From: Deltaproteobacteria bacterium
Lineage (GTDB): Bacteria; UBA10199; DSSB01; JACPFA01
Length of the DNA stretch: 64,000 bases
Reading direction: 5' to 3'
Assembly (NCBI GenBank): GCA_016183235.1
Contig: JACPFA010000033.1
Coordinates: 1-64,000, forward strand
Shown here: piece by piece, positions 21,577 to 64,000 of the stretch
Layout: each line of letters starts with the position of its first letter
How positions within the stretch are numbered: the first letter of the stretch is position 1
Translations under genes and position numbers: made by a program
The notes under the pieces: generated by a model
The model's input: only the letters and a program-made list of their open reading frames with translations
What the model was told of the DNA's origin: nothing
Database searches by the model: none

Positions 21577-21588
21577 GGGGCGCATTCT

Positions 21589-23902: not shown

Positions 23903-23915
23903 TAGGTTCTACTCG

Positions 23916-26392: not shown

Positions 26393-26411
26393 AAAAGACA
26401 AGGAGGAACCC

Positions 26412-32863: not shown

Positions 32864-32866
32864 CCT

Positions 32867-33616: not shown

Positions 33617-33662
33617 CAAAAAAATGTTTCCCCCACAAGATTTTGGAGGTATACTCCCTAGG

Positions 33663-34871
33663 ATGAACCGACCCCAAGTCAAAGAGGAGCTCCTCTCGGC
33701 CGCCAGGCCGTTTCTTGAGGTAAGAAAGATTCAGAAACTCGACGAAGAGTTCGAGAAGGGTGGGATCAGGATGAAGATCGCCACACTAGGGGAAAGGGTC
33801 AAGGTCTCCGAGGAGAAATACCAGGCCCTGTTCGAGGGTTCCCCAGACGGGGTTGTGGTCTGCCGCCCCGGCGGGGGAAGGATCCTGGAGTGCAACCGTC
33901 AGACGGAGCATCTCCTCCTTAAGATGAGGCACCAGCTGAGAAAGATGTCTCTTGTCGATCTTTTCCCAAAGAGATCTAAGAAGACCCTGAAGGACGGCCT
34001 TGAGAAAATTATGCTGGGCCCAGTTGATTTCAAGGATCTTTGTATCCCCCTTGAGAAGGGAAAAACGCGAACCTTAAGCATGACGGCCAGTGGTATCCGC
34101 CACGAAGGCGAGAAGGCAGTCCTCTGCATCTTCAAGGATGTAACCGAGAAACGCCTTCTGGAGAATCAGATCCGTCAAACGGAGAAGATGTCTCTCTTGG
34201 GTCAGTTCACCGCTGGGGCGGCCCACGAGATCAACAACCCCCTGGCCATTATTTCCTCGCACACCCAGTATCTTTTGGAGAATGTCCTGAATAAGAAGAT
34301 TCGCAAGAAGGAGATGAACGAAATCCGGGAGACCTTAAACCTTCTCTACCGAGAGGCCCACTTTTGCGGGGGAATCATCAAGAATCTCTTGGCCTACACC
34401 CACGTAAACGGGGTGGTCCGAAAACCGGTTGATCTTACAACGGTCGTCAACCATTCCATCAAGATGGTGGAACGCCAGCTCAAACTCTCCAACATCACCG
34501 TGGAAAAACGATTCACCGAAACAATTCCCCACGTCCTATCCGATGACAACCTACTGCAGCAGGTCCTCATGAACCTGATCTGGAATGCCCAGGCGGCCAT
34601 GCCCAAAGGGGGCAAATTGCGGGTGGAGGTGCGAACCGATCAGAAGGGCTCAGTCGAGGTCATCGTCAGTGACACGGGGCTTGGAATCCATTCGAAGAAT
34701 CTCGACAAGATTTACACCCCCTTTTTCACCACAAAAGAGATCGGCAAGGGAACGGGGCTGGGGCTCTGGGTGGTCAAGTCGATACTCGATGACCACAAGG
34801 CAGCGATTGATGTGAAGAGCCGGGTTGGAAAGGGAACTGTTTTCACCATAAAGTTCCCTGCGGCTTCTTAA
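33663..34871 (+). CDS. NtrB-like PAS histidine kinase
   Basis: 402 residues from ATG 33663 (an ATG at 33624 is possible but has no ribosome site). Coiled coil, PAS domain (about 50-165; KYQALFEGSPDGVVV ... CIFKDVTEKR), HisKA AGAAHEINNPLAIIS, HATPase (NLIWNAQAAM, DTGLGIHSKNL, GTGLGLWVVKS). Its stop overlaps the start of the NtrC-type gene, which makes it the most likely direct kinase of that activator. Confidence 0.92.
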   Translation: MNRPQVKEELLSAARPFLEVRKIQKLDEEFEKGGIRMKIATLGERVKVSEEKYQALFEGSPDGVVVCRPGGGRILECNRQTEHLLLKMRHQLRKMSLVDLFPKRSKKTLKDGLEKIMLGPVDFKDLCIPLEKGKTRTLSMTASGIRHEGEKAVLCIFKDVTEKRLLENQIRQTEKMSLLGQFTAGAAHEINNPLAIISSHTQYLLENVLNKKIRKKEMNEIRETLNLLYREAHFCGGIIKNLLAYTHVNGVVRKPVDLTTVVNHSIKMVERQLKLSNITVEKRFTETIPHVLSDDNLLQQVLMNLIWNAQAAMPKGGKLRVEVRTDQKGSVEVIVSDTGLGIHSKNLDKIYTPFFTTKEIGKGTGLGLWVVKSILDDHKAAIDVKSRVGKGTVFTIKFPAAS

Positions 34872-36247
34872 TGGAAACCATTCTCATCATTGATGACGAA
34901 GAAGATCTTTGCCGCACACTGGAAAAAGTGCTCACCAAAGAAGGGTATCGTGTCATTTGGACCACTTCTCCTGGTTCCGTCTTATCACTGATGCAGACGG
35001 AATCGCCCTGCGCCGCTCTGTTGGATCTCAAGCTGGGCAACCAAGACGGGCTCGCTGTTCTAAAGGAGATCCGTGAAAAAGATCCTCACCTACCTGTGAT
35101 TATGTTAACCGCTTACGAAACCGTGAAAACCGCCGTTGAGGCCATGAAACAAGGGGCCTTTCACTACATGCCAAAACCCTTTGATAACGAAGAACTTAAA
35201 ACCCTCCTTGATAAGGCCATCACCCAAAGAAGGCTGTATGATGAAATGAACAAGCTGAGAACCACGCTGGGTGAATCTGAAACGTTAAAGATGCTCATGG
35301 GTCAATCCGAAAAAATCCAAGAGGTCATTAAATTGATTCATTCTGTGGCCCCTACCAATGTGAATGTCTTGCTCTTGGGTGAATCGGGAACTGGCAAGGA
35401 ACTGGCTGCCAATGCTATTCATCATCTCTCAAAGCGTGCTAATGGGCCCTTTATTCCTGTCGATTGTGCCGCCATTCCTGAGACGCTTATTGAAAGTGAG
35501 CTTTTTGGGCACGAAAAAGGCTCTTTCACGGGTGCGGTGTCTTCTCAACCGGGACATTTTGAAATGGCTGACGGCGGCACCATCTTTTTAGATGAGATAG
35601 GGAATATTCCTCCCAGCGTTCAATCCAAGCTCCTTCGCTTTCTTGAAACCCATGAACTCAAAAGGGTCGGGGGGAGAAAACCCATTAAAACATCGGTACG
35701 GGTTATCGCAGCAACCAATATTGATTTAGCTCGGTCGTCTAAAGAAAATGGTTTTAGATTAGATCTGTTGTATCGACTTAACGAATTCCCCATCCACCTC
35801 CCCCCTTTAAGAGAAAGACCCGAAGATATTCACCTGCTTTGTGCGCATTTTGTTGCTGAATTTGGTTTAGAACTCGAGAAAAAAATTGAAGGGATTACCC
35901 CAGAGGCCTTGGAACGACTGCAAAATTATTCATTTCCCGGAAATGTAAGGGAGTTGAGAAATGCTTTAAAGCGAGCCAGCGTCATCGCCACTGGCCAGAT
36001 CGAAGTAGCCAATCTTCCTCTTGAAGTTTGTCAGCCAGAAAAAAAAGCCCCCCTTCATGAAATTACCCTCCCCTTGGAACCCAATCTCCCCCTCCTAGAA
36101 GCCTCACGCCGAATTGCCATTCAAGTGGAGAAGAGCCTTATCCAAAATGCCTTACACCGCACCCAGGGGCATTATGAAGAGGCTGCGCGCCTGCTCGGCA
36201 TCTCACGAAAAACGCTCTACAATAAGGTGAAGGAATACGGAGTTTAA
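34871..36247 (+). CDS. NtrC-family sigma-54-dependent response regulator
   Basis: 458 residues: receiver (1-120; phospho-Asp in ALLDLKLGN), AAA+ domain (about 145-380) with Walker A GESGTGKELA, the sigma-54-contacting loop as GSFTGA (Ser for Ala in GAFTGA), Walker B GGTIFLDEIG, and a C-terminal Fis-type HTH (EEAARLLGISRKTLYNKVKEY). It should remodel sigma-54 RNA polymerase. The strong sigma-54 promoter before gvpA, 3.6 kb downstream, is the obvious target candidate. Confidence 0.95.
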   Translation: METILIIDDEEDLCRTLEKVLTKEGYRVIWTTSPGSVLSLMQTESPCAALLDLKLGNQDGLAVLKEIREKDPHLPVIMLTAYETVKTAVEAMKQGAFHYMPKPFDNEELKTLLDKAITQRRLYDEMNKLRTTLGESETLKMLMGQSEKIQEVIKLIHSVAPTNVNVLLLGESGTGKELAANAIHHLSKRANGPFIPVDCAAIPETLIESELFGHEKGSFTGAVSSQPGHFEMADGGTIFLDEIGNIPPSVQSKLLRFLETHELKRVGGRKPIKTSVRVIAATNIDLARSSKENGFRLDLLYRLNEFPIHLPPLRERPEDIHLLCAHFVAEFGLELEKKIEGITPEALERLQNYSFPGNVRELRNALKRASVIATGQIEVANLPLEVCQPEKKAPLHEITLPLEPNLPLLEASRRIAIQVEKSLIQNALHRTQGHYEEAARLLGISRKTLYNKVKEYGV

Positions 36248-39967: not shown

Positions 39968-40183
39968 ATGGCCGTGCAAAAATCAATGGCTAGTTCGTCA
40001 CTTGCAGAAGTTATCGATCGCATCCTTGACAAAGGGATCGTAATTGATGCTTGGGCAAGGCTTTCGCTCGTGGGGATCGAATTCCTATCTCTCGAGGCCA
40101 GGGTCGTGGTCGCCGGGGTCGAGACCTATTTGAAATATGCCGAAGCGATTGGCTTAACAACCAGCGCTGCTCAACCTGCCTAA
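39968..40183 (+). CDS. gvpA: Gas-vesicle major structural protein GvpA
   Basis: 71 residues with the GvpA signature: [19 protein letters not shown] then [20 protein letters not shown] and [13 protein letters not shown]. GvpA monomers assemble into the ribbed gas-permeable shell. First gene after the sigma-54 promoter, and followed by a hairpin, as expected for the most highly expressed product of the operon. Confidence 0.97.
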
Positions 40184-40199
40184 ATAAAAGTTTCAAGGG

Positions 40200-40251
40200 G
40201 GTTTGCCGAGCGAACCCTTCGCTTTAAAACGAAGGCTCCGTTTGCCAAACC
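40200..40251 (+). promoter_or_regulatory. Hairpin between gvpA and the next gene
   Basis: GGTTTG...CCTTCG and CGAAGG...CAAACC form an interrupted stem around CTTTAAAA, 16 nt after the gvpA stop. No T-run follows, so it is more likely a 3'-end stabiliser or processing/partial-termination site that raises gvpA over downstream genes. Confidence 0.6.
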
Positions 40252-40282
40252 GTCTGAACCTTGAATACCAAGGAGCAGTGTG

Positions 40283-40837
40283 GTGCCCGTACCTGAAGAG
40301 ATCCGAAGCTTAGCAGAGGGCGTTGTGGCCTCGTTTGAATTGGGGGTCAACGCCGTGGGTCGCCTGATTGAGCAGGGGCTTGAACTTCTCGACGGCTATC
40401 GTCGCGAGCAAGAAGCGGTTCAAGGGCGGCTTCGCAATGCCTTGACCTTAGTTGGAAGCCTTCGAAGGAAAGACTTCGATGGGATCATGGGCAGGATTCT
40501 CGCGTTCCAGTTGAGCCGAGAATCCGAAATCAAGACGCTCATCAGGGAATCCCTAAAAAAGCAGAGGGGGCTCGCCGCGAGGCTTAAACACTCTCTCGAG
40601 GCTGGCATCTTCCAAGAGGTGGAACGGTGCAAGGAAGGGCTTTCCAGGCTAATCGATGAAGCGAGGGAAGAGATTTTTGCGTTTCAACGGGAGCAGGAAA
40701 AGATCCGCTCCGCCCTTGAGGCGCTTGAGGCCAACACTCTGGTATCGGCCAGGGAATTCAAGAAGGTCATTGGTGATCTCGAGACGGAACTTTTTGGTGC
40801 GGACAACAAACAGGTAGCGGCCATGGGAAATGGCTAA
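40283..40837 (+). CDS. Unknown helical protein in the gvpC position (first)
   Basis: 184 residues from GTG 40283 (AGGAG 7 nt upstream; GTG 40280 is also possible). Almost entirely predicted coiled-coil/helix. A weak motif of the type (K/R)xQxxxxxRLxxxLE recurs about every 45-50 residues (near 42, 93 and 136). No family recognised. The place after gvpA is where the shell-strengthening repeat protein GvpC is usually encoded, so a shell-binding role is possible but unproven. Confidence 0.65.
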   Translation: MPVPEEIRSLAEGVVASFELGVNAVGRLIEQGLELLDGYRREQEAVQGRLRNALTLVGSLRRKDFDGIMGRILAFQLSRESEIKTLIRESLKKQRGLAARLKHSLEAGIFQEVERCKEGLSRLIDEAREEIFAFQREQEKIRSALEALEANTLVSAREFKKVIGDLETELFGADNKQVAAMGNG

Positions 40838-40860
40838 CACAAGAAAGGATGGTTAATGAT

Positions 40861-41241
40861 ATGGGACTCGCAGAACAATTCGTAAATTTGGGGGAGGATT
40901 TTCTGGGCGCTTTTGATGCCAGAGTGAACTTCCTCGGAAAGAATATCGTTGATGTGAAGAACTTGAAGCTGGACACCCATAAGCTCCAGAACAAGTTCGC
41001 CAAGGAGCAGAAGGCCATGGGAAACAAGCTCCGAGCCGATCTCGGCGCCTTTGTGGACGACTTGACCGGAACCGTTGAGGCTCTGCAGCACAAATTCCAA
41101 AAACAACAACGGACAGTCCATCAGGATTGCACGGCCGCGCATCGAGCGTGGGAAAAGGTTGAGAAGACGATGCAAGCCAAGCGCCGTAATTTAAAAAACG
41201 CCGTCAATGCAGCAAAACAGAAGGCATCTCGCTCTAAGTAA
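40861..41241 (+). CDS. Unknown helical protein in the gvpC position (second)
   Basis: 126 residues from ATG 40861 (AAAGGA 11 nt upstream; ATG 40849 would overlap that site). Basic and helical with two KEQ/KQQ-centred repeats (FAKEQKAMGNKLRADLGAF near 46 and FQKQQRTVHQD near 79) resembling the motif in the preceding gene. Probably a paralogous companion. No known domain; gas-vesicle role inferred from operon membership. Confidence 0.65.
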   Translation: MGLAEQFVNLGEDFLGAFDARVNFLGKNIVDVKNLKLDTHKLQNKFAKEQKAMGNKLRADLGAFVDDLTGTVEALQHKFQKQQRTVHQDCTAAHRAWEKVEKTMQAKRRNLKNAVNAAKQKASRSK

Positions 41242-41314
41242 CTAAGATGCCTTTTCACGGAAGGTCACCCCTCCGCGCTTGAAGGCGGATGGTTGATCCT
41301 CCCTGGGGGATGAC

Positions 41315-41491
41315 ATGAATCAATCGGAAAAGATCGTTTGTGCCTTTTGCCACGGCCGCGGGGTAGTCCGTATTGCCAAATCATTAAAAAACAAGTTCCA
41401 CCTGTGTCACGATTGCAAAGGGACAGGGATGGAAACTGAAACCAGGGAATCGGGGGGAGGCTTGCTATGGAAGTTGATCAAGGGGCCATGA
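41315..41491 (+). CDS. Small zinc-ribbon protein with DnaJ-like CxxCxGxG motifs
   Basis: 58 residues from ATG 41315. Two cysteine motifs, CAFCHGRG (residues 9-16) and CHDCKGTG (residues 31-38), copy the zinc-binding CxxCxGxG repeats of DnaJ but without a J-domain. It overlaps the start of gvpN. In this operon, which also encodes a J-domain GvpF, it may be a separated DnaJ-type zinc module. The ribosome site is weak (CTGGGGGATGAC). Role inferred. Confidence 0.7.
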   Translation: MNQSEKIVCAFCHGRGVVRIAKSLKNKFHLCHDCKGTGMETETRESGGGLLWKLIKGP

Positions 41492-42414
41492 CCGTCGTGC
41501 AGCCCAAGGCCGGCGAAGGTTTTATCGAAACCTCTTTTATCAAAGGTGTCTTGGATCGGGCCATGCATTATCTAAAGGCCGGTTTTCCGGTTCATCTACG
41601 CGGTATCGCGGGGACCGGCAAAACGACCTTGGCATTGCGTCTTGCCGAGTTCTTGAACAGACCGGTGGTATGGCTGCAGGGAGATGAAGAACTTTCTACC
41701 ACTCATTTGATTGGAGGAGAGATCGGCTATCATAGGAGAAGTTTGCGCGACAATTTTATTTCCTCGGTCTTGAAAGTCGAAGAGGATGCCTCCAGGGAGT
41801 GGGTCGACAACAGGCTGACCCATGCCTGCCAAAACGGCTACACCCTGGTTTACGACGAATTTACCCGTTCCCGCCCAGAGGCCAACAATGTGCTCCTTTC
41901 GGTTCTGCAAGAAGGGGTCTTGAATTTCCCAACCAGCCGTGGGCAAGGGGAACAGATCATCAAAGTTCACCCCGATTTTCACGCCATTTTTACCAGCAAT
42001 CCCGAAGAATATGCTGGGGTACATCGGTCTCAGGATGCCCTCCGTGATCGATTGGTGACCCTCGACCTTGAGTCCTTCGATCGTGAATCCGAGATGAAAA
42101 TCACCCAAAAAAAATCGGGGACGCCGCTTGTCGATGCGGCCAAGATTGTTGACATCGTACGGAGTGTGCGGGATTCGGGGCAATACGAGTTTGCTCCCAC
42201 CGTTCGTGGTTGTCTGATGATTGCCAAGGCGGTCTATTCCTACAAGGGCCGTGTCAAGATTGACAAGACCGATCCCATCTTTCGACAAATCTGTTTGGAT
42301 ATTCTTACTTCCGAGACATCGCGGATCGGTAGCAAGACAACCGCAAAAAAAGTGAAAGACATTGTTTTAAAGGCGATCGACCAGTACTGCAAAAATGGGA
42401 ATGGTCACGCATGA
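41467..42414 (+). CDS. gvpN: Gas-vesicle AAA+ ATPase GvpN
   Basis: 315 residues of the MoxR-like AAA+ group. Walker A GIAGTGKTTLA (about 46-56), Walker B YTLVYDEFTRSRPEANN, sensor FTSNPEEYAG. GvpN is needed for gas-vesicle growth to full width. The ATG at 41467 has a GGGAGG site; ATG 41488 would form an ATGA overlap with the zinc-ribbon gene and is an alternative. Confidence 0.94.
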   Translation: MEVDQGAMTVVQPKAGEGFIETSFIKGVLDRAMHYLKAGFPVHLRGIAGTGKTTLALRLAEFLNRPVVWLQGDEELSTTHLIGGEIGYHRRSLRDNFISSVLKVEEDASREWVDNRLTHACQNGYTLVYDEFTRSRPEANNVLLSVLQEGVLNFPTSRGQGEQIIKVHPDFHAIFTSNPEEYAGVHRSQDALRDRLVTLDLESFDRESEMKITQKKSGTPLVDAAKIVDIVRSVRDSGQYEFAPTVRGCLMIAKAVYSYKGRVKIDKTDPIFRQICLDILTSETSRIGSKTTAKKVKDIVLKAIDQYCKNGNGHA

Positions 42415-42436
42415 ATAAAAAATCAGGAGGACGTTT

Positions 42437-42781
42437 ATGAGTATTTTAGCCAGACCACAGCGGGGCTGTGCTTCGATCAAGGGGACCTCACGTATCAAAC
42501 ACCTGGCAAGCTTGGGTGGCGAACTTGCCCACGAGGCAAACCGCCTCTATATGCTGACTGTGAAGCGAGAGAGCATGGTGAATAAAAAACGTTCCATTGA
42601 AACCCGGCTCAAGGAGATCAACAAGGTGTTAAAAGAGATCGAGGTAGAAACCGATATTAGCAGCAAAAAATACAGCCTGCTGAGCGGCACGCACACCCCT
42701 CGTCGAAGTCGCGCCAAGACTCATGATGAGGCAACATCCGCCCAAACAACATCTACCAAAATGTTTTCTATGAAATACTAA
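42437..42781 (+). CDS. Unknown small helical protein of the gvp operon
   Basis: 114 residues: a central helical hairpin (about 25-75; EANRLYMLTVKRESM and EIEVETDISSKKYSLL) and a basic, Ser/Thr-rich tail. A good AGGAGG ribosome site precedes it. No family recognised, though it may be a divergent gas-vesicle accessory protein. Lies between gvpN and the Hsp20 gene. Confidence 0.68.
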   Translation: MSILARPQRGCASIKGTSRIKHLASLGGELAHEANRLYMLTVKRESMVNKKRSIETRLKEINKVLKEIEVETDISSKKYSLLSGTHTPRRSRAKTHDEATSAQTTSTKMFSMKY

Positions 42782-42792
42782 GAGGCAAGTTT

Positions 42793-43380
42793 ATGGCTAA
42801 AAAAAATGCTCACAAAAAAGAAAATCAGAAACCAGATGCTGAAATTGAGCTTGGTGGCAAGGGGCTACTTGGCGGGTTTTTCAAAGGGCTCGGTAGCCTC
42901 ATCGAACTTGCCGATAAACTTGGCAAGACGGGAGGGATCGAAAAAAGTGGGACGTTTGGGGTCAATGGGCAAAAAGACGTCAATGGGGTCTATGGTTTTT
43001 CGATCAAGACCATGACCGGGCCGGGAGGCGCCGCAAGGCCGGTGGTCCAACCGTTTGGTGATTTGTCAAAATTCAAACCCTCAGCGCAATCGGTCAAAAA
43101 ACAAAAGCCCGCCGGACCCACCGTGGAGGAGGCACGCGAACCCCTCACGGATATTTTTGACGAAGGCGGCTTTGTGCGGATTGTCGTGGAACTCCCGGGG
43201 GTTTCAGAGCCTGAACTGGTTTGTGAGATTCAAGGAGACGACATCGTTCAGATTTCGACAACCGGTAACAAGAAATATTCCAAAGAGATCCTTCTCACCC
43301 ATAAAATCGACCCAGCAAGCGAGGAAAAAAGATTCACGAACGGTGTGTTGGAACTCAAGCTCAAAAAGAAGGTCAAATGA
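42793..43380 (+). CDS. gvpH: Hsp20/alpha-crystallin protein (GvpH-like)
   Basis: 195 residues: a Gly-rich N-terminal part and a C-terminal alpha-crystallin-like domain (about 117-195; DEGGFVRIVVELPGVSEPEL ... NGVLELKLKKK). GvpH proteins are small heat-shock proteins that keep gas-vesicle subunits soluble. ATGA-type overlap with the AAA gene downstream. Confidence 0.87.
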   Translation: MAKKNAHKKENQKPDAEIELGGKGLLGGFFKGLGSLIELADKLGKTGGIEKSGTFGVNGQKDVNGVYGFSIKTMTGPGGAARPVVQPFGDLSKFKPSAQSVKKQKPAGPTVEEAREPLTDIFDEGGFVRIVVELPGVSEPELVCEIQGDDIVQISTTGNKKYSKEILLTHKIDPASEEKRFTNGVLELKLKKKVK

Positions 43381-45554
43381 TGCCCGAGCGCAAAGAAAAA
43401 ACGGCAGAAGCAAAAAGCGCGACCCTTCGTGTCGGGGAGGCCCTCTCCAAAGACGTGGGGCGTGGAGTGGCACGAATCGACCCTGCGGAAATGGAGAAAT
43501 TGGGCGTAAAGGTGGGAGAGGTAATCCATATCAAGGGGGAAAGAACCGTTGGCGCCAAGGTGCTGCCAACCTTCTCAGACCACCGCGGTCGTGGGATGAT
43601 CGAAATTGATGGAATTATGCGCGAAAATGCCAAGGTCGGTCTTGATGAAAAAGTGCGGGTGACACCGGGGAATTTTGAACCAGCCAAATCCGTAACGCTC
43701 AAGACCCTGTCCCGGTTAGGCTTGGTCGATCCATCAGGACAGACCCGCTATCTGGGGCGCATGGTTGAAGGGCTTCCAGTGGCCAAAGGTGACAAGGTAC
43801 AGGTGGCCCTGTTTGGTTCAAGAACTCGGCAATTTCATGTGATCCAAACCGCTCCTGAAGGCATTGTTTTAGTCACACCACAGACATCCATCAAGGTCGA
43901 AGAACCCAAAAGCAGAGAGGAAGCAAAGGGTGAATCAGACCAGGCAACCATTTCCTACGAAGACGTTGGAGGTTTGGGAAAAGAGATTCAACGGGTTCGC
44001 GAGATGATCGAGCTGCCCCTCAAAAGCCCACAAATTTTTGAGCGTTTGGGCATTGATCCTCCCAAAGGGGTTCTGCTTTACGGACCTCCGGGTACCGGAA
44101 AAACGCTGATTGCCCGCGCGGTGGCCCACGAATCGGATGCCAATTTTTACACCGTGGCAGGCCCCGAGATTGTCCACAAATTTTATGGCGAGTCAGAGCA
44201 ACATTTAAGAAGCATTTTTGCGGAAGCCTCGCGCAATGCCCCAGCGATCATCTTCATCGACGAGATCGACTCGGTGGCCCCAAAGCGGGCCAATGTGCAG
44301 GGAGAGGTGGAAAAAAGGATTGTGGCAACACTTTTAAATCTCATGGATGGGCTGAAATCCCGCGGTGAATTGATTGTCATCGGGGCGACCAACATGCCCG
44401 ATCTGTTGGACCAGGCATTGCGGCGACCCGGCCGCTTTGACCGCGAGATTGTCATCGGAATTCCAGACCGCGACGGACGCTTGAAGATCCTTGAGATCCA
44501 CACCCGCGGCATGCCCATGGCCGCAGACGTCAGCCTGGAGCGACTCGCCGACATCACTCATGGCTACGTTGGCGCAGACCTCGAAGCCCTCGCCCGCGAA
44601 GCAGCGATGAGCTGTCTGCGCGAATCGATGGAGAAGGGAGATATCACCCTCGAAGATGTCCCCTACGACGTTATCGAATCACTCGAGGTAAATCACACTC
44701 ACTTCATGCAAGCACTCAATGAGGTGGAACCCTCAGCCATTCGCGAGGTCTCCATTGAAGTACCCAACGTCCACTGGGCCGACATCGGCGGACTTGACAA
44801 CGCAAAAATGATTTTGAGGGAAAGCGTCGAATGGCCGCTGCGCTACGACAAACTTTTCGAAAAGGCTAGGTTCAAACCAACAAAGGGAATTCTGTTGGGG
44901 GGACCGCCGGGGACAGGAAAGACCTTGCTCGCCAAGGCCCTGGCCACCGAATCGGAGGTCAACTTTATTTCTATCAAGGGCCCTGAGCTTGTTTCTAAAT
45001 GGATTGGAGAGTCTGAAAAGGGAATCCGCGAAGTCTTCAAGAAGGCAAAATCCGCGGCCCCTTGCATCCTTTTTTTCGACGAGATGGATTCAATTGCGCC
45101 ACGGCGGAGTTCCGGAGAGGGAGATTCGGGGGTCATGGGCCGAACGATCAGCCAATTTTTAACCGAGTTGGATGGGCTGGAAGAATTGAGAGGGGTGGTT
45201 GTGCTTGGCGCCACCAATCGAACAGACCTGATTGATCCGGCCATCCTTAGGCCCGGGCGCTTTGATCACTTGATTCAGTTGGGCCTCCCCGACATTGACG
45301 CAAGGGAGGCTATCTTCAAGATCCACACCCGAGACAGGCCCATGGAGCAAGGGATCAACATGTCCAAATTGGCTCGGGAAACGGAAGGGATGAGCGGGGC
45401 AGAGATCGAGGCCATCTGCAAACAGGCCATCACCCTTGCCATTCGGGAGTTTATCGGGGCCCATCCAAAAGATGCCAACGAAAAGGCCGAAAAATTTTGG
45501 GTCCGCAAGGCACATTTTGACGCTGCCGCAAAGAAGAAGGGGGACGCGACATGA
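43377..45554 (+). CDS. CDC48/VAT-type double AAA+ ATPase
   Basis: 725 residues: a CDC48 N-domain (about 15-185), D1 with Walker A GPPGTGKTLIA and Walker B IIFIDEIDSVAP, and D2 with GPPGTGKTLLA and ILFFDEMDSIAP. Unfoldase of archaeal/eukaryotic type, found in several gas-vesicle clusters. It may extract or remodel GvpA-family or other clients. ATG 43377 or 43380 could start it; the first overlaps the upstream TGA. Confidence 0.92.
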   Translation: MMPERKEKTAEAKSATLRVGEALSKDVGRGVARIDPAEMEKLGVKVGEVIHIKGERTVGAKVLPTFSDHRGRGMIEIDGIMRENAKVGLDEKVRVTPGNFEPAKSVTLKTLSRLGLVDPSGQTRYLGRMVEGLPVAKGDKVQVALFGSRTRQFHVIQTAPEGIVLVTPQTSIKVEEPKSREEAKGESDQATISYEDVGGLGKEIQRVREMIELPLKSPQIFERLGIDPPKGVLLYGPPGTGKTLIARAVAHESDANFYTVAGPEIVHKFYGESEQHLRSIFAEASRNAPAIIFIDEIDSVAPKRANVQGEVEKRIVATLLNLMDGLKSRGELIVIGATNMPDLLDQALRRPGRFDREIVIGIPDRDGRLKILEIHTRGMPMAADVSLERLADITHGYVGADLEALAREAAMSCLRESMEKGDITLEDVPYDVIESLEVNHTHFMQALNEVEPSAIREVSIEVPNVHWADIGGLDNAKMILRESVEWPLRYDKLFEKARFKPTKGILLGGPPGTGKTLLAKALATESEVNFISIKGPELVSKWIGESEKGIREVFKKAKSAAPCILFFDEMDSIAPRRSSGEGDSGVMGRTISQFLTELDGLEELRGVVVLGATNRTDLIDPAILRPGRFDHLIQLGLPDIDAREAIFKIHTRDRPMEQGINMSKLARETEGMSGAEIEAICKQAITLAIREFIGAHPKDANEKAEKFWVRKAHFDAAAKKKGDAT

Positions 45555-46570
45555 GTCTGTATCTTTACGGGGTCATTGATAGCCAAGACAAGGTCGCCCT
45601 AGGGCCAATCGGCTTTGACCGCCAGCAGGTAGAGATTTTGCCCGCGGGGAGGCTGGCGGCTATGGTGGGCCCTTCACCCCAAGAAGATTTTTTTCACATG
45701 CCGAAAGAAAAACTGGTGGGGCTTCTCCTGTCCCACCAACAAACACTCGAGACCGTCATGAAACGTTTTTTTGTCCTTCCCTTCAAATTCGGAACGACCC
45801 TAAAGGATGAATCGGAAGCAACCCGGATTTTGCAAGAGGGAAGAGAAGCGCTAACCAAACTCATGGGGCAAATGAAAGGCTGCACCGAAATCGACGTCAT
45901 CGCAACTTGGGATGTGAAAAAAACCCTCCAGGAGATTGCCGAAGAAGATCCTGAAATCGCTGCGTGTAAAAAGGCAGTAACCCACGGCCACACCAACGGC
46001 GACGTGGCCTTTGTGGGCATGCTCCTTGCCAAGGCCCTAAAACAAAGGGCCGAACAATGGAAAGGCGAAATTACCCAGGCCCTTTTCAACTATAATGTCG
46101 CTCCTCACGATCTGTTGAATGACACCATGATCCTCAATTCATCTTTTCTAGTCCCCCATCAAGAAGAAAAGAATTTTATGACAAAGCTCGAAAAAGTAGA
46201 TGCCCATTTTGGTGGAAAAATCCATTTCAAATGCGTGGGTCCCCTCCCCCCTTATAGTTTTGCAACGATCATGATCAAACGGTTTGACCCCGTCCAGATT
46301 CAACAGGCGGCCGCCATGCTTCGTTTAAACGGCCGGACCGAATTATTAGAACTCAAAAAAATCTACCGACAATTATCTAAAGAGTTTCATCCGGATCACT
46401 GTTTAAAACCTTCTCAAAACGAGGCTGGGTTTGAAGACATCAACAAGGCCTATGAAATGGTCGCTGACTATTGCAAAGACGGACCCAAGTCGCTCGAAAG
46501 GGCCGCGGTAGAGAGTTTTTCACGGTTGGAGGTCTGCGCAGCACAACAGGAGTCGCACTGTGCGGCATGA
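45551..46570 (+). CDS. gvpF: GvpF/L protein fused to a C-terminal J-domain
   Basis: 339 residues. Residues 1-245 are GvpF/GvpL (MSLYLYGVID ..., FVLPFKFGT, VGPLPPYSFATIMI). After a short linker, residues about 262-315 form a compact J-domain: ELLELKKIYRQLSKEFHPDH with HPD at 280-282 and GFEDINKAYEMV as helix III. GvpF binds GvpA during assembly, so the fusion could recruit DnaK directly to it. The tail has three Cys residues. ATGA overlap upstream. Confidence 0.9.
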   Translation: MSLYLYGVIDSQDKVALGPIGFDRQQVEILPAGRLAAMVGPSPQEDFFHMPKEKLVGLLLSHQQTLETVMKRFFVLPFKFGTTLKDESEATRILQEGREALTKLMGQMKGCTEIDVIATWDVKKTLQEIAEEDPEIAACKKAVTHGHTNGDVAFVGMLLAKALKQRAEQWKGEITQALFNYNVAPHDLLNDTMILNSSFLVPHQEEKNFMTKLEKVDAHFGGKIHFKCVGPLPPYSFATIMIKRFDPVQIQQAAAMLRLNGRTELLELKKIYRQLSKEFHPDHCLKPSQNEAGFEDINKAYEMVADYCKDGPKSLERAAVESFSRLEVCAAQQESHCAA

Positions 46571-46580
46571 AGGAAAATAT

Positions 46581-47300
46581 ATGTATGGAATTATCGCAAC
46601 CGACGAAGCCCCAAATTTTGGGCCCATAGGAATGGGAGGGGGTGAAAGTGAAGTGATTACGGTGGGCACTCAAGGATTGGCCGCGGTGATCAGCGATGCC
46701 TCGCTGGATCACTACACCCTTTCCAAAGAAAACCTCACGACCCATACCCGCGTGATTGAAAAAGTGGCAGAAGACTACACAATTCTTCCCATGCGATTTT
46801 GCACCGTGGCCGAATCAACCGATGAGATACTCTCTTTTTTGGAGGACAACGAGCGTCAACTCAAAAACAGCCTAAAAGATTTAGAGGGAAAGGTGGAGAT
46901 CGGGATCAAAATCATTTGGAAAAACATGAAAGAGATTTACGAGGAAATGACCCTTGAAAACCGCAAGATAAAAGAAATTAAAACAGGGGGCGGCAAAGAC
47001 ATGCAAGGCCTGATCCAGGCCGGACAAATGGTCGAAGTCGCCCTAGAAGAAAAAAAAGCGGTTGAGGGGGAGGAATATCTTCGACCCCTAAAAAAAATGT
47101 CGGTCCGATTCAAGGAGGAAGAAAACAAGACAGAAGACATGGTCGTCACCGCTTCCTTCCTGATAGATAAGGCGTGGCTTGGCGAGTTTGATGCGCAGGT
47201 AGACAAAATGGGGCGGGAGCATCATAAACGGATTGATGTTAAATATATTGGCCCGATTCCTCCGTTTAGTTTTGTTAATCTAGAAATGCATTGGGAGTGA
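46581..47300 (+). CDS. gvpL: GvpF/L family protein
   Basis: 239 residues from ATG 46581 (AAGGA 6 nt upstream; the frame start at 46560 overlaps the preceding gene). GvpF/L motifs: YGIIATDEAPNF, ILPMRFCTVAES, and the terminal YIGPIPPFSFVNLEM. Cytoplasmic assembly factor, one of four in the operon. Confidence 0.92.
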   Translation: MYGIIATDEAPNFGPIGMGGGESEVITVGTQGLAAVISDASLDHYTLSKENLTTHTRVIEKVAEDYTILPMRFCTVAESTDEILSFLEDNERQLKNSLKDLEGKVEIGIKIIWKNMKEIYEEMTLENRKIKEIKTGGGKDMQGLIQAGQMVEVALEEKKAVEGEEYLRPLKKMSVRFKEEENKTEDMVVTASFLIDKAWLGEFDAQVDKMGREHHKRIDVKYIGPIPPFSFVNLEMHWE

Positions 47301-47306
47301 GAATTT

Positions 47307-48107
47307 ATGAATGGACTTTGGCTCTATTGCATCATTGAAAACCGCGGGGAAATGAAATGGAACTGCCTTGGGATTCATGGTACCAGCGCGGTCTTTGTGG
47401 TACCCGGCGGTGAGTTTGCCGCGGTGGTTTCCGAGGAACCGATGAAAAAGTATCCACTGGTGCGCGACTATTTGATCGCTCACCAAAAGGTGAATGAAAC
47501 AGTGATGCAGGGGCGTTCGGTGCTGCCGGTCCGGTTTTGCACCATGACGGAGCGCAAGGAAAAGATTGTTGACGAGGTGCTCGTACCCAAGGCGCAGGAG
47601 TTTCGGAAAGAATTCGCCGAAATCGAAGGGAAAGAGGAATATGGGTTGCGAGTTCGGTGGACAAACCTCGACCGTATTTTTCGTGAGATAGGTGAAACCG
47701 ATGAAAAGATTTTAGAGAAAAAAAAGAAAATCCTTTTGCAGACCGAAGCAGAGAGACGCATTGAACTGGTTGACATTGGGCATTGGGTTCAAACGGCGAT
47801 CCAGCAAAAGAACCAAGCCATGGTCGACGCCTTGATGGCAGAACTTGTTCCACTCGCAACTCGGTCGAAGAAAAATAACACGCTGGGAGATGCCATGATT
47901 TTAAACGCGGCGTTCCTGCTCAAAAAGGGTGTTGAGCCAGCCTTGAGCGCCAAGGTTTTGTCCCTGGATGAAAAATACAAAGGCCTGCTGCAGTTCAAGT
48001 ATGTCGGCCCTGTGCCGCCGTTCAATTTTGTAGAAATCGTTATCAAGTGGCGAGAAGAGCCAAGCCACGCCACGGTGCAAGGAGAAAAAAATGTTTCTGT
48101 TGGATGA
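47307..48107 (+). CDS. gvpL: GvpF/L family protein
   Basis: 266 residues with WLYCIIENRGE, SVLPVRFCTMTERKE and YVGPVPPFNFVEIVIK, and a charged helical middle. Closest in layout to the preceding gene. It overlaps gvpG by 17 nt. Confidence 0.92.
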   Translation: MNGLWLYCIIENRGEMKWNCLGIHGTSAVFVVPGGEFAAVVSEEPMKKYPLVRDYLIAHQKVNETVMQGRSVLPVRFCTMTERKEKIVDEVLVPKAQEFRKEFAEIEGKEEYGLRVRWTNLDRIFREIGETDEKILEKKKKILLQTEAERRIELVDIGHWVQTAIQQKNQAMVDALMAELVPLATRSKKNNTLGDAMILNAAFLLKKGVEPALSAKVLSLDEKYKGLLQFKYVGPVPPFNFVEIVIKWREEPSHATVQGEKNVSVG

Positions 48108-48321
48108 CCTATTGCTTGCCCCCATCAAGGGGGTTAAATGGCTCGGCGAGAAACTTCGAACCATGGCCGACAAGGAGCTCTTTGATCCCGACAAGATTCA
48201 AGAGGAACTCATGACCCTTCAAGCCAAACTCGATATGGGCGAGATTGCCGAGCAAGAATACGAGGCAAAAGAAGTAGAGCTACTGAAGAGACTTTCGGAA
48301 ATTCAAGAAAGGCAGGAGTAA
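48091..48321 (+). CDS. gvpG: Gas-vesicle protein GvpG
   Basis: 76 residues: LLDDLLLAPIKGVKWLGEKL followed by a long charged helix ending EVELLKRLSEIQERQE, as in GvpG. Small accessory protein that joins the GvpF/L complex. Its start lies within the end of the preceding gene. Confidence 0.92.
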   Translation: MFLLDDLLLAPIKGVKWLGEKLRTMADKELFDPDKIQEELMTLQAKLDMGEIAEQEYEAKEVELLKRLSEIQERQE

Positions 48322-48325
48322 AGTT

Positions 48326-48616
48326 ATGTTTGGTATCCATGAAGCACAACAAAAGGTCGTTGATTTTCTCGCAACGGAGCTTGGAAAAGAGCGGGAAATG
48401 ATACGTTTTATCAAGATGGCGAAGTTTGAAGCCAATTGGGAGGCAAAAGTTGAGGTAACAGAACTCAACGAATACCTCAAAAAATTGGGACATCCTACAA
48501 TCTTTGACAGAAACGTCTACACCGTGGTGCTCGATCCGACCCTTGAGATTGTGAGTTTTGCTCAAACCGCTTCCCGCGAACGAAGTTACGCAACGGAAGA
48601 GCGAGAGGAAATTTAA
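48326..48616 (+). CDS. gvpO: GvpO-like gas-vesicle protein
   Basis: 96 residues. The C-terminal half WEAKVEVTELNEYLKKLG ... FDRNVYTVVLDPTLEIVSF resembles the single GvpO domain (beta-strand rich, with the W-x-V/E-E pattern). Role in assembly or regulation; assignment is by similarity pattern and position after gvpG. Confidence 0.78.
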   Translation: MFGIHEAQQKVVDFLATELGKEREMIRFIKMAKFEANWEAKVEVTELNEYLKKLGHPTIFDRNVYTVVLDPTLEIVSFAQTASRERSYATEEREEI

Positions 48617-48631
48617 GGAAGGAAGTTCGCC

Positions 48632-48853
48632 ATGCAACATTCAACTCATGGGGAGAGTTTAGCCGATGTGGTGGAACGTGTCCTCGATAAGGGGTTGGTC
48701 ATCAACGCCGATATCGTAATTTCGCTTTGTCAAACCGAACTTATTTCCATCAAACTGCGCGCCGCCATCGCCTCTTTTGAGACAGCGGCCAAGTGGGGGC
48801 TCGCCTTTCCTTCCGACACGCGAATAAATGCGCCCGTGTCAGCGAAGGTTTAA
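48632..48853 (+). CDS. gvpJ: GvpJ (GvpA-family minor shell protein)
   Basis: 73 residues of the GvpA fold (LADVVERVLDKGLVINADIV then RAAIASFETAAKW), differing from GvpA in the second half as GvpJ/M/S do. Minor shell or tip component, probably nucleating the bicone. Has an AAGGAAGG ribosome site. Confidence 0.9.
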   Translation: MQHSTHGESLADVVERVLDKGLVINADIVISLCQTELISIKLRAAIASFETAAKWGLAFPSDTRINAPVSAKV

Positions 48854-48868
48854 AAAACGGGGTGTTAT

Positions 48869-49189
48869 ATGAAACTCGAAATTGACGACAAAGAACTCAA
48901 ACACGGAGTACTGGGGCTTGTGCTGGCAGTGGTTGAAGTGATACGCGACACCTTGAAGATCCAGTCGGTCAAAAGAATGGAGGGGGGGCGCTTGACTGAG
49001 CAGCAAATTGAACGGTTGGGCAACGCACTCCTAGAGCTTGACCGCGCGATTGAACAGATCAAAGAAGAACAAGGTGTTTCCGAAGCAGTCCGGTCGGTGA
49101 GAGATGGCTTGGATGATCTCGTGAACAGCATGATTCATACGGTTGCAAACCCCATCAACGCCGAAAAAGATGGGTGTTTTAATGTCTAA
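48869..49189 (+). CDS. gvpK: Gas-vesicle protein GvpK
   Basis: 106 residues: DDKELKHGVLGLVLAVVEVIRDTLKIQSVKR, GGRLTEQQIERLGNALLELDRAIEQ, typical of GvpK, an essential helical assembly protein. Its 3' end overlaps the next gvpF/L frame. Confidence 0.92.
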   Translation: MKLEIDDKELKHGVLGLVLAVVEVIRDTLKIQSVKRMEGGRLTEQQIERLGNALLELDRAIEQIKEEQGVSEAVRSVRDGLDDLVNSMIHTVANPINAEKDGCFNV

Positions 49190-49949
49190 AGGGATTTACC
49201 TATTTTGCGTCGCTGTGGGGTCTCAGGAGGAGGATCTAGTGCTCAAAGGGATTGGGGGAGAGGCAGTTTTTACGGTATCGACCGCTGGACTTTCCGCGGT
49301 GGTGCAATCTTGTGGTGAGCCTTTTTCCTCAAAGGATCCCAAACTGATCTCGGAATGGATTTTAACCCATCAGGCCGTGGTAGATTTTGCCTGGGAACGT
49401 TTTGCAACGGTACTTCCTTTCAGCTTTGATACGATTGTCATCGAGAAAGATGGAAAATCGGCCCGTGAGAATCTCTTGGCCTGGCTTGAAAAAGAGGCCA
49501 TTGCCCTCAGAGAAAAATTGGCAAGGCTTGAAGGAAAGGCGGAGTATGGTGTGCAGATCTCGTGGGACCCTTTGCGCATAGCCCCTCGAATCACACAGCG
49601 GGACGCTAATTTTCAGTTACTTGAGGCAAAAATTCAAGCAGCCCCCCCTGGCACGGCCTATCTTTTAAAGCAGCAATTGGAAGCCCTCCTCAAAGAGCGG
49701 CTCGAAATAGCGGCAGATGCCTATTTTAAGGAATTCTATCAAAAGATCAAAGAGTGCACTGAGGAGGTCAAGGTTGAAAAAACAAAAAAAGAAGAGGCGC
49801 CCCGCCAGATGCTTGCCAATCTGTCTTGCCTGGCTCCCAAGGAAAGTATTGCCCGATTGGGGGATCAATTAGACAAGATCGGAAAGATAGATGGATTCTT
49901 TGTTCGATTTACGGGCCCCTGGCCTCCCTACAGTTTTGTAAATTTATAA
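49182..49949 (+). CDS. gvpF: GvpF/L family protein
   Basis: 255 residues from ATG 49182 (MSKGIYLFCV), which overlaps the gvpK stop by 8 nt; ATG 49170 is an alternative. Motifs TVLPFSFDT and FTGPWPPYSFVNL. Fourth GvpF/L of the operon; no J-domain here. Confidence 0.9.
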   Translation: MSKGIYLFCVAVGSQEEDLVLKGIGGEAVFTVSTAGLSAVVQSCGEPFSSKDPKLISEWILTHQAVVDFAWERFATVLPFSFDTIVIEKDGKSARENLLAWLEKEAIALREKLARLEGKAEYGVQISWDPLRIAPRITQRDANFQLLEAKIQAAPPGTAYLLKQQLEALLKERLEIAADAYFKEFYQKIKECTEEVKVEKTKKEEAPRQMLANLSCLAPKESIARLGDQLDKIGKIDGFFVRFTGPWPPYSFVNL

Positions 49950-49962
49950 ATAGTGTGAACAC

Positions 49963-50181
49963 ATGGAACCCGCTCGTTCAGGCCATGCCACATTGGTGGA
50001 CTTACTCGACCGAATTCTCGATAAGGGGTTGATTTTAAATGCCGACCTGATTATCTCTTTAGCGGGAGTACCCCTCATCGCCGTTTCACTTCGAGCGGCC
50101 ATCGCCAGCATTGAAACCATGGCAAAATACGGGATGATGAGAGAGTTGATTCAAGACGCAAGTCGAGAAAAAATTCATTAA
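49963..50181 (+). CDS. gvpJ: Second GvpJ-like minor shell protein
   Basis: 72 residues of the GvpA fold (LVDLLDRILDKGLILNADLI, RAAIASIETMAKYGM). Third GvpA-family gene of the operon and its last gvp gene. About 90 nt separate it from dnaK. Confidence 0.9.
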   Translation: MEPARSGHATLVDLLDRILDKGLILNADLIISLAGVPLIAVSLRAAIASIETMAKYGMMRELIQDASREKIH

Positions 50182-60166: not shown

Positions 60167-60823
60167 ATGCTTAAAATGGTTCAGGGCGTTATTAATTTTC
60201 ATAAAAATATTTTGCCGGGCTTGCGCCATCAATTTGCCCAATTAGGTAATGGCCAATCACCCGACACCTTAATGATTGCTTGCTCAGATAGCCGGGTGGT
60301 TCCTAATCTTTTTGCCTCAACAGACCCTGGGGATTTGTTTGTGATAAGAAATCCTGGCAATTTAGTTCCACCCTATCAAAACACAACAACAACTCAAACC
60401 TCAGAAGGGGCAGCCATTGAAATCGCCGTTGATACCCTCAAAGTAAAAGATATTATTGTTTGTGGTCATTCTCACTGCGCTGGCATGACGGCACTTTTAA
60501 ATGAAGAAAAGGCAACCCCTCAATTAAAACAGTGGCTACGCCATGGACAAAAAGCAAAAGGTACCTTTCATTTAGGTAAAACTTTTAATGATTCACTGCC
60601 TGCAACTGAGCAGCTTTCTCAGCTCAATGTAATGAGTCAGCTGGAAAACTTAAAAACCTACCCTGAAGTATTAGATCATTTAAAAGCAGGCACATTGCGT
60701 CTTCATGGATGGTGGTTTGATATTGCAGCTGGCAACGTCTATGCTTTTGATCCTGAAGAAAAAAAATTCTTAATCATCGACGAAAAACAAGGGGCAAAAA
60801 TTCTGCAACGCTTGACCACTTAG
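60167..60823 (+). CDS. Beta-carbonic anhydrase
   Basis: 218 residues. Interconverts CO2 and bicarbonate. Zinc ligands and catalytic dyad are visible: CSDSR (Cys and Asp-Arg), then HSHCAGM (His and Cys) near residue 105. The FVIRNPGN motif is family-typical. GAGGTAAGCT ribosome region. Ends at the stop of the convergent multihaem gene. Confidence 0.94.
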   Translation: MLKMVQGVINFHKNILPGLRHQFAQLGNGQSPDTLMIACSDSRVVPNLFASTDPGDLFVIRNPGNLVPPYQNTTTTQTSEGAAIEIAVDTLKVKDIIVCGHSHCAGMTALLNEEKATPQLKQWLRHGQKAKGTFHLGKTFNDSLPATEQLSQLNVMSQLENLKTYPEVLDHLKAGTLRLHGWWFDIAAGNVYAFDPEEKKFLIIDEKQGAKILQRLTT

Positions 60824-63040
60824 CTATCTTTGATGACAAGTGCCACAGGTATTTCCGGTGTGGCAGGCGGTGGCGCAACTTGCTTTCAAGCTTTCAGCTC
60901 GAAAATCGTTTCCGTGAAAAACGGGGGACCAACGATCGATCCATCCCATTGCATGGTAGCGTTTATCAGGAGAGGCGGTTTCGGGGGTGAGGTCGTTTTT
61001 ACCATGACAAGCTAGGCAGGCACCTGAACCTGAATGACAAGTGCTGCATTCTGACGGATTGGCCCAAAAGCTTGCTCCGTGCCCTTGGAAGCTGCCGAGG
61101 TGATTGCGACTGTAGGCCTCGAGAGGTTCTCTGGGTTTGTGACATTCAAGGCACGTTGTCGTGGGATTAACGGGGCCCTCTATTTTAACGGGTTGATGAC
61201 AATGACTGCATTGCGCCAACGGCACAGCGCTTGTTGCGAGCAAAGCTTGATCGGTTGAGTATTGATGGGTTGATTTCCAATTAGCTTCAGGATGCACCAC
61301 CACCTGCCTCTTCGTGTGACAGGTGTTACATGTCCCTTCGGCTCCCTTAGATGGAAGCGTAGGCACACCTTCTCCATTATCGGTATGGCAAGTGGGGCAG
61401 GCAACACCTAAAGCGCCCGTGGTATGCTGCCCATAAATACGATGATCGATGTTAGGTGGAATTTGTGCAGAGGGTTTTTCGGTATGGCAATAGTCACAAT
61501 TCTTTTCTTCTATTTCGTCATGACAACTTACACATACTTTCTCTTTTGGGCGTAATTGGCCAGAATCCTTGGGCCTATGACAAGTGCTGCAATTGTCGTC
61601 CATGTCTAAATAGGTAGTACCTGAATAACCGGGAGTCGCAAAATGGGGAACATGCTTGAGCGCAAAAGGCGCCGCTGCATCCCGAGGCGAAACGGGCACA
61701 TTAAGGGCATAGCTGCTCGGAGTTTCTTTCGGAGAAGGTCTCCAGGCAATTTGCACAAGCCCTCTTACATCTATACCAGAACCCCCAAAAGTTGAGGCTG
61801 GGGTCAAAACCTCCGCAACAGGTGCAACATAAAATCCCTCCCCAATAGCAACTTCAGCAGAGACCCTACCCCCACCTGACAGCTGATCCTCGGGTTGATA
61901 GGGTTGCCCCGGGCTTGGCATATAAAATTCTGCGGGTACATCAAAAGGTGGCAGAGAAAGAATATCGGCTGGCTCTACATAATTTAAATAACCCGTGGCT
62001 AATAAAACAACAGGGCCCAAGGTGGTACGAACGTTCAAAGCTAGTTGGCTAAGTCCCCCATCGGTTTCGCTGTCACGCCTCATCCCGGTTAAACCCATTT
62101 GGGTAAAATAATCTAATAATGAAAATCGAATATCTGCATTGAGTTGATAGCCATCTAATTCACTCTCACGCATTAAAAGGCCAGCTACCGTCATGACCTC
62201 AAGACGGTAGGCACCTGGAAAATCAAAAGACAAGGCTCCGGCCAGATCCACCTGATGTCGAGGTAAGCTGGTTGGCCCATCCGCTACTTTTTCTCCATCC
62301 ACATAGACCTGACCCCCTGGAAATAAAACTTCTAAGGGATGCCCCTTTAGTAAAGACGCTAAAGGGTTTTGATCGTATTGATAAGCCACCCAAACTCGCC
62401 ACGTGGAATCGGTAAGAACGGTCAATCGAGCCGCCCCTTTAGTGACGCTTTCTGACAAGGGATCGATGTCAACCATACCTTGAAGGGAACCAAGGCCTGG
62501 ATGAGAATAAGCACCGCCTAGACCAACATCCACAGTTTCTAGGTCTGGAAAGGGCTTGCGGTAATCAGCTCGAGTGTAAAAGATTAACCCATCGATGGGT
62601 CGCAGAGAAAGTTTTGCCCCCACGCTAGGAGAATCATCATGAACTTCAGAATAAAGATCGACAGGCCAACCTACATACGCATCAAACCCAAGCCAAGGCG
62701 CGATAACAAACCGCCCGGCTACCCCATCGAGCGATAAAGGCGCACCATGGTCTAATAAAAAAAGCCGCCCGGCTTGAACTGCTCCCGATCTCCAAGAATA
62801 TTGGGCATAAGCTTGATCGACAAAAAGTTTATAATTCCCCTCTCCACGATTATCTTCGGTCACTCCGCCTATTCTTAAAAAAGCCTTGGCTTTCTCATAT
62901 AAAGCTACCCAACCATCAAAGTCAAAAAGCCCCGCATAGTGATCTTCTTGTAAAAAAGAACCCACCCGGGGATTGAGATTGTAAGTAATGACTGCAGGCT
63001 CCGAAGTTGCTCCAACCGCTAATGGCCCTTTATCCCCCAT
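60824..63040 (-). CDS. Outer-membrane barrel fused to a multihaem cytochrome c domain
   Basis: 738 residues from ATG 63040. Residues about 1-450 alternate as beta strands with amphipathic pattern, like an outer-membrane barrel. Residues about 470-738 hold ten CxxCH haem sites (CSTCH, CVSCH, CDYCH, CPTCH, CNTCH and others) plus one CATACH. It lacks a signal peptide, odd for such a protein. Removing one G from the G5 at 63034-63038 would join it in frame to the upstream multihaem frame. Probably moves electrons across the outer membrane. Confidence 0.82.
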   Translation of the reverse strand: MGDKGPLAVGATSEPAVITYNLNPRVGSFLQEDHYAGLFDFDGWVALYEKAKAFLRIGGVTEDNRGEGNYKLFVDQAYAQYSWRSGAVQAGRLFLLDHGAPLSLDGVAGRFVIAPWLGFDAYVGWPVDLYSEVHDDSPSVGAKLSLRPIDGLIFYTRADYRKPFPDLETVDVGLGGAYSHPGLGSLQGMVDIDPLSESVTKGAARLTVLTDSTWRVWVAYQYDQNPLASLLKGHPLEVLFPGGQVYVDGEKVADGPTSLPRHQVDLAGALSFDFPGAYRLEVMTVAGLLMRESELDGYQLNADIRFSLLDYFTQMGLTGMRRDSETDGGLSQLALNVRTTLGPVVLLATGYLNYVEPADILSLPPFDVPAEFYMPSPGQPYQPEDQLSGGGRVSAEVAIGEGFYVAPVAEVLTPASTFGGSGIDVRGLVQIAWRPSPKETPSSYALNVPVSPRDAAAPFALKHVPHFATPGYSGTTYLDMDDNCSTCHRPKDSGQLRPKEKVCVSCHDEIEEKNCDYCHTEKPSAQIPPNIDHRIYGQHTTGALGVACPTCHTDNGEGVPTLPSKGAEGTCNTCHTKRQVVVHPEANWKSTHQYSTDQALLATSAVPLAQCSHCHQPVKIEGPVNPTTTCLECHKPREPLEAYSRNHLGSFQGHGASFWANPSECSTCHSGSGACLACHGKNDLTPETASPDKRYHAMGWIDRWSPVFHGNDFRAESLKASCATACHTGNTCGTCHQR

Positions 63041-64000
63041 GGTGACACTCCTGACATACAGGTTCTTGATAAGTAGTTTTGGGCTCATGGGCCTGGTTGT
63101 GACAAAGGCCCAAATTTCCCTTACTACACGTGTTTTGAATGGCTGGAATGGTGCGGGTATCGTAATGAATATTTTCGGCGGGGCTCATGCCTTCTGCATT
63201 CACAAATAAAGGGCTGAAGTGCATAAACGCAGTATGCCCAGGGCTATTAGTAGATACCCAAGGGGAATTATCATAAGACACATGGGGATAGGCGGTGTGA
63301 CATTCATAACAAGAAGGCACGCCTTGCAAATTATTCAGAGCAAGGTCGGCTTTGCTTTGTTGGTTCGAGCTAAACCCCACAACCTCACCGTGACATTTCA
63401 AGCAATTTTGATTAGACTTCGAATAATAAAATCCGTGGCCCTCACCTTTGGCCCATTGCCCAACATGGGTCACCCCTTCTTTTGAATCATGGCAGCCGAT
63501 GCGTTCACAGTTAAGTTTAGGGCGTACCCCTTCATCGGTGCGATCATAATCTTCGCCGTGACAGGTGCTGCAAACTTTTGCATCGGTTTTGCGTTCTTTT
63601 AAGAAAGTAAGCGCATGTTCGGTTTTAGGCGCAGGGCTCAACCAATCACTTTGCCGATGCGGATATAAGGCATGGCATTCATAACAAGAAGGTGCCAGGT
63701 CACTACCTTCAAAAGAAGAACCATGACAATTGACCGTATCACACGATTGCTTACCATCATCGTAGGCCTCTGCACCATGCACCTTGCCCTTTTCCCAACG
63801 GTTGTTGCCATTGTGACCTTGAATGTGCGGATAATTTTCGTGGCATTTGAAACAAGAAATACCTGAGTTGCCTCCCTTAAGATCATCGCCATGACAATTG
63901 CTGCATTTTATTTGCCCTTCATTATGACACAGGCGGCAAGAATCTGGTTTTCCATCAACCTTGGTTAGTTCGAACGTGTAGGTCCCATGTTTAACTTTGG
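63030..64000 (-). CDS. Multihaem c-type cytochrome, 5' end outside the window
   Basis: The frame is open to the window edge, giving at least 323 residues. Eight CxxCH sites (CRLCH, CSNCH, CFKCH, CYECH twice, CSTCH, CLKCH, CQECH) and two CxxxxCH sites (CDTVNCH, CERIGCH), the alternating pattern of Geobacter-type CxxxxCH/CxxCH proteins. It ends ...CQECHHGG at TAA 63030. The export signal must be upstream of the window. May be the N-terminal half of one protein with the next gene. Confidence 0.85.
   Translation of the reverse strand, partial: KVKHGTYTFELTKVDGKPDSCRLCHNEGQIKCSNCHGDDLKGGNSGISCFKCHENYPHIQGHNGNNRWEKGKVHGAEAYDDGKQSCDTVNCHGSSFEGSDLAPSCYECHALYPHRQSDWLSPAPKTEHALTFLKERKTDAKVCSTCHGEDYDRTDEGVRPKLNCERIGCHDSKEGVTHVGQWAKGEGHGFYYSKSNQNCLKCHGEVVGFSSNQQSKADLALNNLQGVPSCYECHTAYPHVSYDNSPWVSTNSPGHTAFMHFSPLFVNAEGMSPAENIHYDTRTIPAIQNTCSKGNLGLCHNQAHEPKTTYQEPVCQECHHGG

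Follow-up and report, generated by a model that had tools for sequence, protein, structure and literature searches.

A haem-rich locus, probably two overlapping genes of an outer-membrane electron conduit with a leaderless barrel-multihaem protein

The multihaem locus at the end of the window (positions 1-64000 of contig C33, genome G000; the whole contig has 153,672 bases) is best read, with a probability of about 0.72, as a pair of neighbouring genes that are coupled in translation and together encode an electron conduit across the outer membrane. The supposed one-base break between the two frames is more likely the normal border of two overlapping genes. What was observed are the gene borders, the haem motifs, the homology of ORF1 and of the C-terminal domain of ORF2, and the same two-ORF layout in a second genome, G032. 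The locus is ordinary in this main respect, being a gene border and not a break, and unusual in detail, with a merged porin and periplasmic cytochrome and no leader on proteins of this kind in three genera. In the literature searched, no conduit was found in which porin and periplasmic wire form one protein closely coupled to an outer wire of 32 haems. The features are as follows.

60167..60823, plus strand: beta-carbonic-anhydrase-like gene, convergent (50% identity; a counterpart adjoins the conduit operon of G027)
60824..63040, minus strand: ORF2, 738 aa, barrel and multihaem, no signal peptide
60833..61591, minus strand: C-terminal haem domain of ORF2, 10 CxxCH and 1 CATACH (phmmer, hhalign, motif list)
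61727..62968, minus strand: predicted outer-membrane beta-barrel region of ORF2, limits approximate (sequence pattern and weak hhalign alignment to class porins)
63030..63032, minus strand: stop codon (TAA) of ORF1, matching the conserved C-terminus of the family (alignment A1, 13 homologues)
63034..63038, minus strand: G5 tract within the ORF2 start region (read from sequence)
63048..63052, minus strand: AGGAG Shine-Dalgarno-like site, 7 nt before ATG 63040 (motif scan of ORF1)
63030..64000, minus strand: 3' part of ORF1, multihaem lipoprotein cytochrome (MHC), whole gene C33:63030-65901 (motifs, Pfam, class homologues)

ORF1 has 956 aa at full length, carries the lipobox LAGC and extends past the window edge to C33:65901 (locus L002). 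It contains 32 haem motifs (27 CxxCH, 2 CX3CH and 3 CX4CH), 10 of them inside the window; the preliminary description, which saw the upstream frame as a piece with 8 or more haems, had only its last third in view. Pfam matches were Cytochrom_c3_2, Cytochrome_C7 and the MtrC/MtrF domain, and homologues were identified in 24 of 46 class genomes (E 1e-10). By its lipobox, motifs and class homologues, ORF1 is a putative extracellular multihaem lipoprotein cytochrome, as expected of that component in a porin-cytochrome conduit (PCC), with a predicted surface position. The reported frame end was confirmed on the minus strand, where the protein closes with CQECHHGG followed by TAA. In alignment A1 (13 sequences) every protein stops just past the same last haem, with C-termini of the form NTCGGGTxGxCH ... 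LCGxYCH plus 0-4 residues, or a longer tail in some, and the window C-terminus, PVCQECHHGG, coincides with the end of the 12 aligned class homologues. Since ORF1 ends at the natural C-terminus of its family, the TAA is the expected stop and not an interruption.

The frame after this TAA is +1 and stays open for 2.2 kb down to 60824. The longest ATG frame of ORF2 opens at 63088, but a ribosome-binding site precedes ATG 63040, which gives 738 aa and an overlap of 11 nt between the ORF2 start and the ORF1 stop (ATGGGGGATAA). Of the 68 out-of-frame ATGs that ORF1 contains, only the one at 63040 (AGGAG-N7-ATG) is preceded by a Shine-Dalgarno match of at least 5 nt; the argument is statistical, and the site may be partly fortuitous because CQEC is a common spelling of the haem motif. 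In 198 of 200 shuffles the RNA was more structured than that around this ATG (z = +2.4), a result that fits an initiation site and not a recoding element. The first residues of window ORF2 resemble those of the second ORF of G032 from Met on, MGDKGPLAVGATSEPAVI / MGGDGRIVGTATSRGTLI (shuffle p 0.0017), a sequence likeness that is suggestive only.

The border of G032 is built in the same manner. There, an 11-haem MHC lipoprotein ends CGGYCHKR-TAA, followed by AATAAG and then ATG, with AAGAGG nine bases before this ATG; the second ORF encodes 664 aa with a barrel and 9 haems, lacks a leader and is followed by a 12-haem lipoprotein gene, which sets it apart from the window. The second ORF is in frame with the stop in G032 and in the +1 frame in the window, so the layout can be explained without invoking a sequencing slip in the window. 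A third leaderless protein, barrel first and 15 haems last, was identified in G008 (RIFCSPLOWO2_02_FULL_50_16), where its gene is divergent from that of a 39-haem MHC. The barrel-haem proteins of G008 and G032 are homologous (blastp E 3e-28 over the barrel). All three share the order of predicted barrel and then haems (9-15 in the two relatives) without a signal peptide, and that of G032 also directly follows an MHC lipoprotein; the shared layout may be convergent because no relationship of the window barrel to theirs could be detected. Between the divergent MHC and barrel-haem genes of G008 lies a 26-nt dyad, 85% complementary (L044:5953-6063), a possible operator. An invertible segment that would have flipped the MHC away from the second gene was also considered in this genome; among the longest inverted repeats detected, none flank the MHC gene.

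ORF2 comprises a barrel-like region and then 11 haem motifs (10 CxxCH and one CX3CH); the order of barrel and then haems stands as first described, the count of 10 does not. The C-terminal domain matched the class hepta- and nonahaem periplasmic proteins with phmmer (E 1e-7 to 5e-9) and the class heptahaem proteins with hhalign (probability 96.9%). By this similarity it appears to correspond to the separate periplasmic cytochrome of the relatives, the periplasmic part of a PCC, and its location is predicted to be periplasmic. The barrel aligned weakly to the class porins (hhalign score 28.3, E 0.007, beaten by 1 of 100 shuffles) and would be at best very distantly related to them. The barrel region had no Pfam match, and its single-sequence AlphaFold2 model (pLDDT 30) was uninformative. 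Barrel-only searches of the class, of wider genomes and of the contig collection returned no relatives but itself, weak matches in G118, G027 and G024 looking like chance. Blastp, and hhalign with shuffles, gave no significant similarity to the barrels of G008 and G032, and homology to them was rejected; likewise, no support was found for homology to the porins of the own genome or of the G029 type. A search of all of G000 for the A3 porin gave no hit at E<=0.01, and a search of the contig collection with alignment A2 gave three loci, all in genomes already found.

About 20 class genomes carry MHC, leader-bearing porin and 7-9-haem genes of the same system. The commonest arrangement is a close series of MHC lipoprotein, porin of ~410-450 aa and heptahaem protein, each with a leader. 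The MHC most similar to ORF1 (41% over 908 aa) belongs to one of these three-gene conduits, in G027 (MAG nzgw603), which shares with the window the homologous lipoprotein, the order MHC, porin and periplasmic haem, and the convergent carbonic anhydrase neighbour. The differences are that porin and heptahaem protein are separate genes with their own leaders and that this porin family (54% mean identity) was not found in the window genome. PCC3 consists of a porin, an extracellular MHC (median 34 haems) and a periplasmic MHC (He et al. 2017, PMC5566968). It is alike in composition, with a porin, an extracellular MHC of very many haems and a periplasmic MHC, and differs in having separate genes and a conserved inner-membrane protein; no such inner-membrane protein was seen beside the locus, whose neighbours encode the carbonic anhydrase and a different kind of lipoprotein. 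MtrCAB and the Omb-Oma-Omc and Ext conduits of Geobacter contain the same functional parts, a lipoprotein cytochrome, an outer-membrane protein and a periplasmic cytochrome (PMC6148476), but as three or more separate proteins, and no full-length sequence relationship of ORF2 to any of them was found. Cyc2 is a cytochrome-porin fusion with a single haem (PMC9040806, PMC10734462); like the predicted ORF2 product it joins cytochrome and barrel in one polypeptide, whereas ORF2 has 11 haems C-terminal to the barrel and no leader, and is not placed with Cyc2.

The proposed function follows this architecture and the operons of the relatives, which support the outer-membrane electron conduit first suggested; barrel fold, membrane position, electron transfer and coupling are predicted. 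ORF1 would be an exported lipoprotein of about 32 haems, acting as extracellular wire or terminal electron carrier. Translation of ORF2 would begin at ATG 63040, a start of its own within the 3' end of ORF1, and its product would be porin and periplasmic cytochrome in one protein, the barrel joined to the 11-haem domain. Electrons may pass from the periplasm to the 11 haems, through the barrel to the 32-haem wire and outside, or in reverse. A conventional electron-transfer locus was identified elsewhere in the same genome (contig C24, L109:7407-17294, plus strand), with a 13-haem MHC, inner-membrane and tetrahaem proteins, a leader-bearing porin and a leader-bearing nonahaem protein, which makes electron exchange with the exterior plausible for this organism.

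The preliminary description took the locus as one protein split by a single base. Skipping one base, or removing one G, does give a single uninterrupted frame of 1691 aa with 43 haem motifs, a hypothetical fusion, and a genuine 43-haem fusion gene, broken by one inserted G through assembly error, strain polymorphism or recent pseudogene formation, would also supply the leader that ORF2 needs and does not have. Single-ORF haem-porin fusions are real in the class. In G042 (L071:320-2497, minus strand) one ORF of 725 aa contains a leader, 12 haems and a class porin, followed by a separate haem protein, and in G014 (L060:2382-4040, plus strand) one of 552 aa contains a leader, 4 haem motifs and a class porin. 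By analogy with both, a self-contained haem-barrel polypeptide in this class is not absurd; in architecture, these fusions are many-haem counterparts of the mono-haem Cyc2. The porin part of G042 was modelled as a 22-strand barrel, mostly with pLDDT >70 (AlphaFold2, 16 sequences), with generic porins and ushers as the nearest solved structures and no confident model for the haem part. An even number of strands would put both barrel ends in the periplasm, and the N-terminal haems of G042 would then be periplasmic; with ORF1 outside, a fusion of ORF1 and ORF2 would need barrel ends on opposite sides, which counts against a simple fusion. Against a broken fusion gene in the window stand also the fact that ORF1 stops where its family naturally ends, the Shine-Dalgarno site and ATG at the border, the barrel-haem ORF standing alone in G008, and the border of G032, which has the same layout with another, in-frame stop and would require two independent errors at one place. 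No uninterrupted homologue with the same domain order was identified in 385 genomes (barrel query) or in the contig collection. Homologues encoded as separate genes, the second with its own signal peptide, had been named as the observation that would speak against one protein; separate genes were found, most porins with their own signal peptide, but the closest counterparts, in G032 and G008, are leaderless. On balance a broken fusion gene is rather unlikely.

The reading as two coupled genes leaves the missing leader to be explained. In a hydrophobicity scan of the 86 ORFs with at least 4 haem motifs in the loci examined, 82 had a hydrophobic leader in the first 120 residues. The four without it are all three barrel-then-haem ORFs (window, G008 and G032) and L059:4325, which carries an N-terminal extension, so the absence appears to be a shared property of the barrel-haem architecture. 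The best hydrophobic 10-mer of ORF2 scored 0.95, compared with at least 2.6 in exported class proteins, and the lack of a signal peptide on the second frame, noted at the outset, holds. No convincing signal peptide was found in other frames of the window, G032 or G008, a short MRVPWVIMMVTA stretch in another frame of G008 being too short. A PCC has an export signal on its barrel and periplasmic parts; ORF2 bears none, and the locus is therefore classed as working like a PCC, its membership left open. Haem c is not attached in the cytoplasm, where ORF2 as a separate leaderless protein should remain, without haem c, and so something is missing from the picture. The missing piece is possibly recoding from the upstream exported gene (an option for the window and G032 but not for the assembled G008 locus) or another export path. 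Transport of the leaderless barrel-multihaem class to the outer membrane by a route not yet recognised, either occasional recoding or a path independent of signal peptides, is a minor possibility. Since c-type haem attachment and barrel insertion both occur outside the cytoplasm, the lack of a leader on this architecture in three genera creates a definite problem of export.

Under recoding, most ribosomes would stop at the TAA and release ORF1, and a minority would enter ORF2, by a +1 or -2 slip on the G run in the window or by stop readthrough in G032, to make a lipid-anchored wire-barrel-wire fusion; in the window this would be one polypeptide with 43 haems spanning the outer membrane. No other route was found by which ORF2 would acquire an export signal, and in both closely linked cases the barrel-haem ORF comes directly after an exported MHC. 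A precedent for reading a stop codon within a conduit gene would be ExtK/ExtL of Geobacter, where a TGA is predicted to encode selenocysteine (PMC6148476). No stimulatory RNA structure was found in the unusually unstructured region, however, the canonical +1 slip site is absent, window and G032 would require different mechanisms and no ORF lies upstream of the barrel-haem ORF of G008, all of which makes recoding improbable.

An ORF2 that has lost its leader and is decaying, or is not exported, is equally improbable. The absent signal peptide would agree with this, but its 738 codons are open, the base composition is coding-like, the 11 haem motifs are intact, and two further genera have leaderless counterparts that are likewise intact. 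Phase variation, also put forward at first, is hardly credible as an effect of slippage in the G5 tract, although a one-base homopolymer change would switch the frame: contingency tracts usually have 8 or more G, the tract is neither a long homopolymer nor a simple repeat, five others of the same kind and length in ORF2 leave the frame intact, and the G032 border has none.

Other parts of the window and of the class gave minor observations. A gas-vesicle-like cluster with several short GvpA-like ORFs and accessory genes occupies 39968-50181 (plus strand), and a packed run of response-regulator, CheR-like and hybrid-kinase-like genes lies at 20579-36247 (plus strand), including two similar ORFs at 28293 and 29300 that open with the same residues; both regions were recognised by eye only. 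At a contig end in G010 (L045:5862-11150, plus strand) a lipoprotein cytochrome of 1762 aa with ~55 haem motifs was identified.
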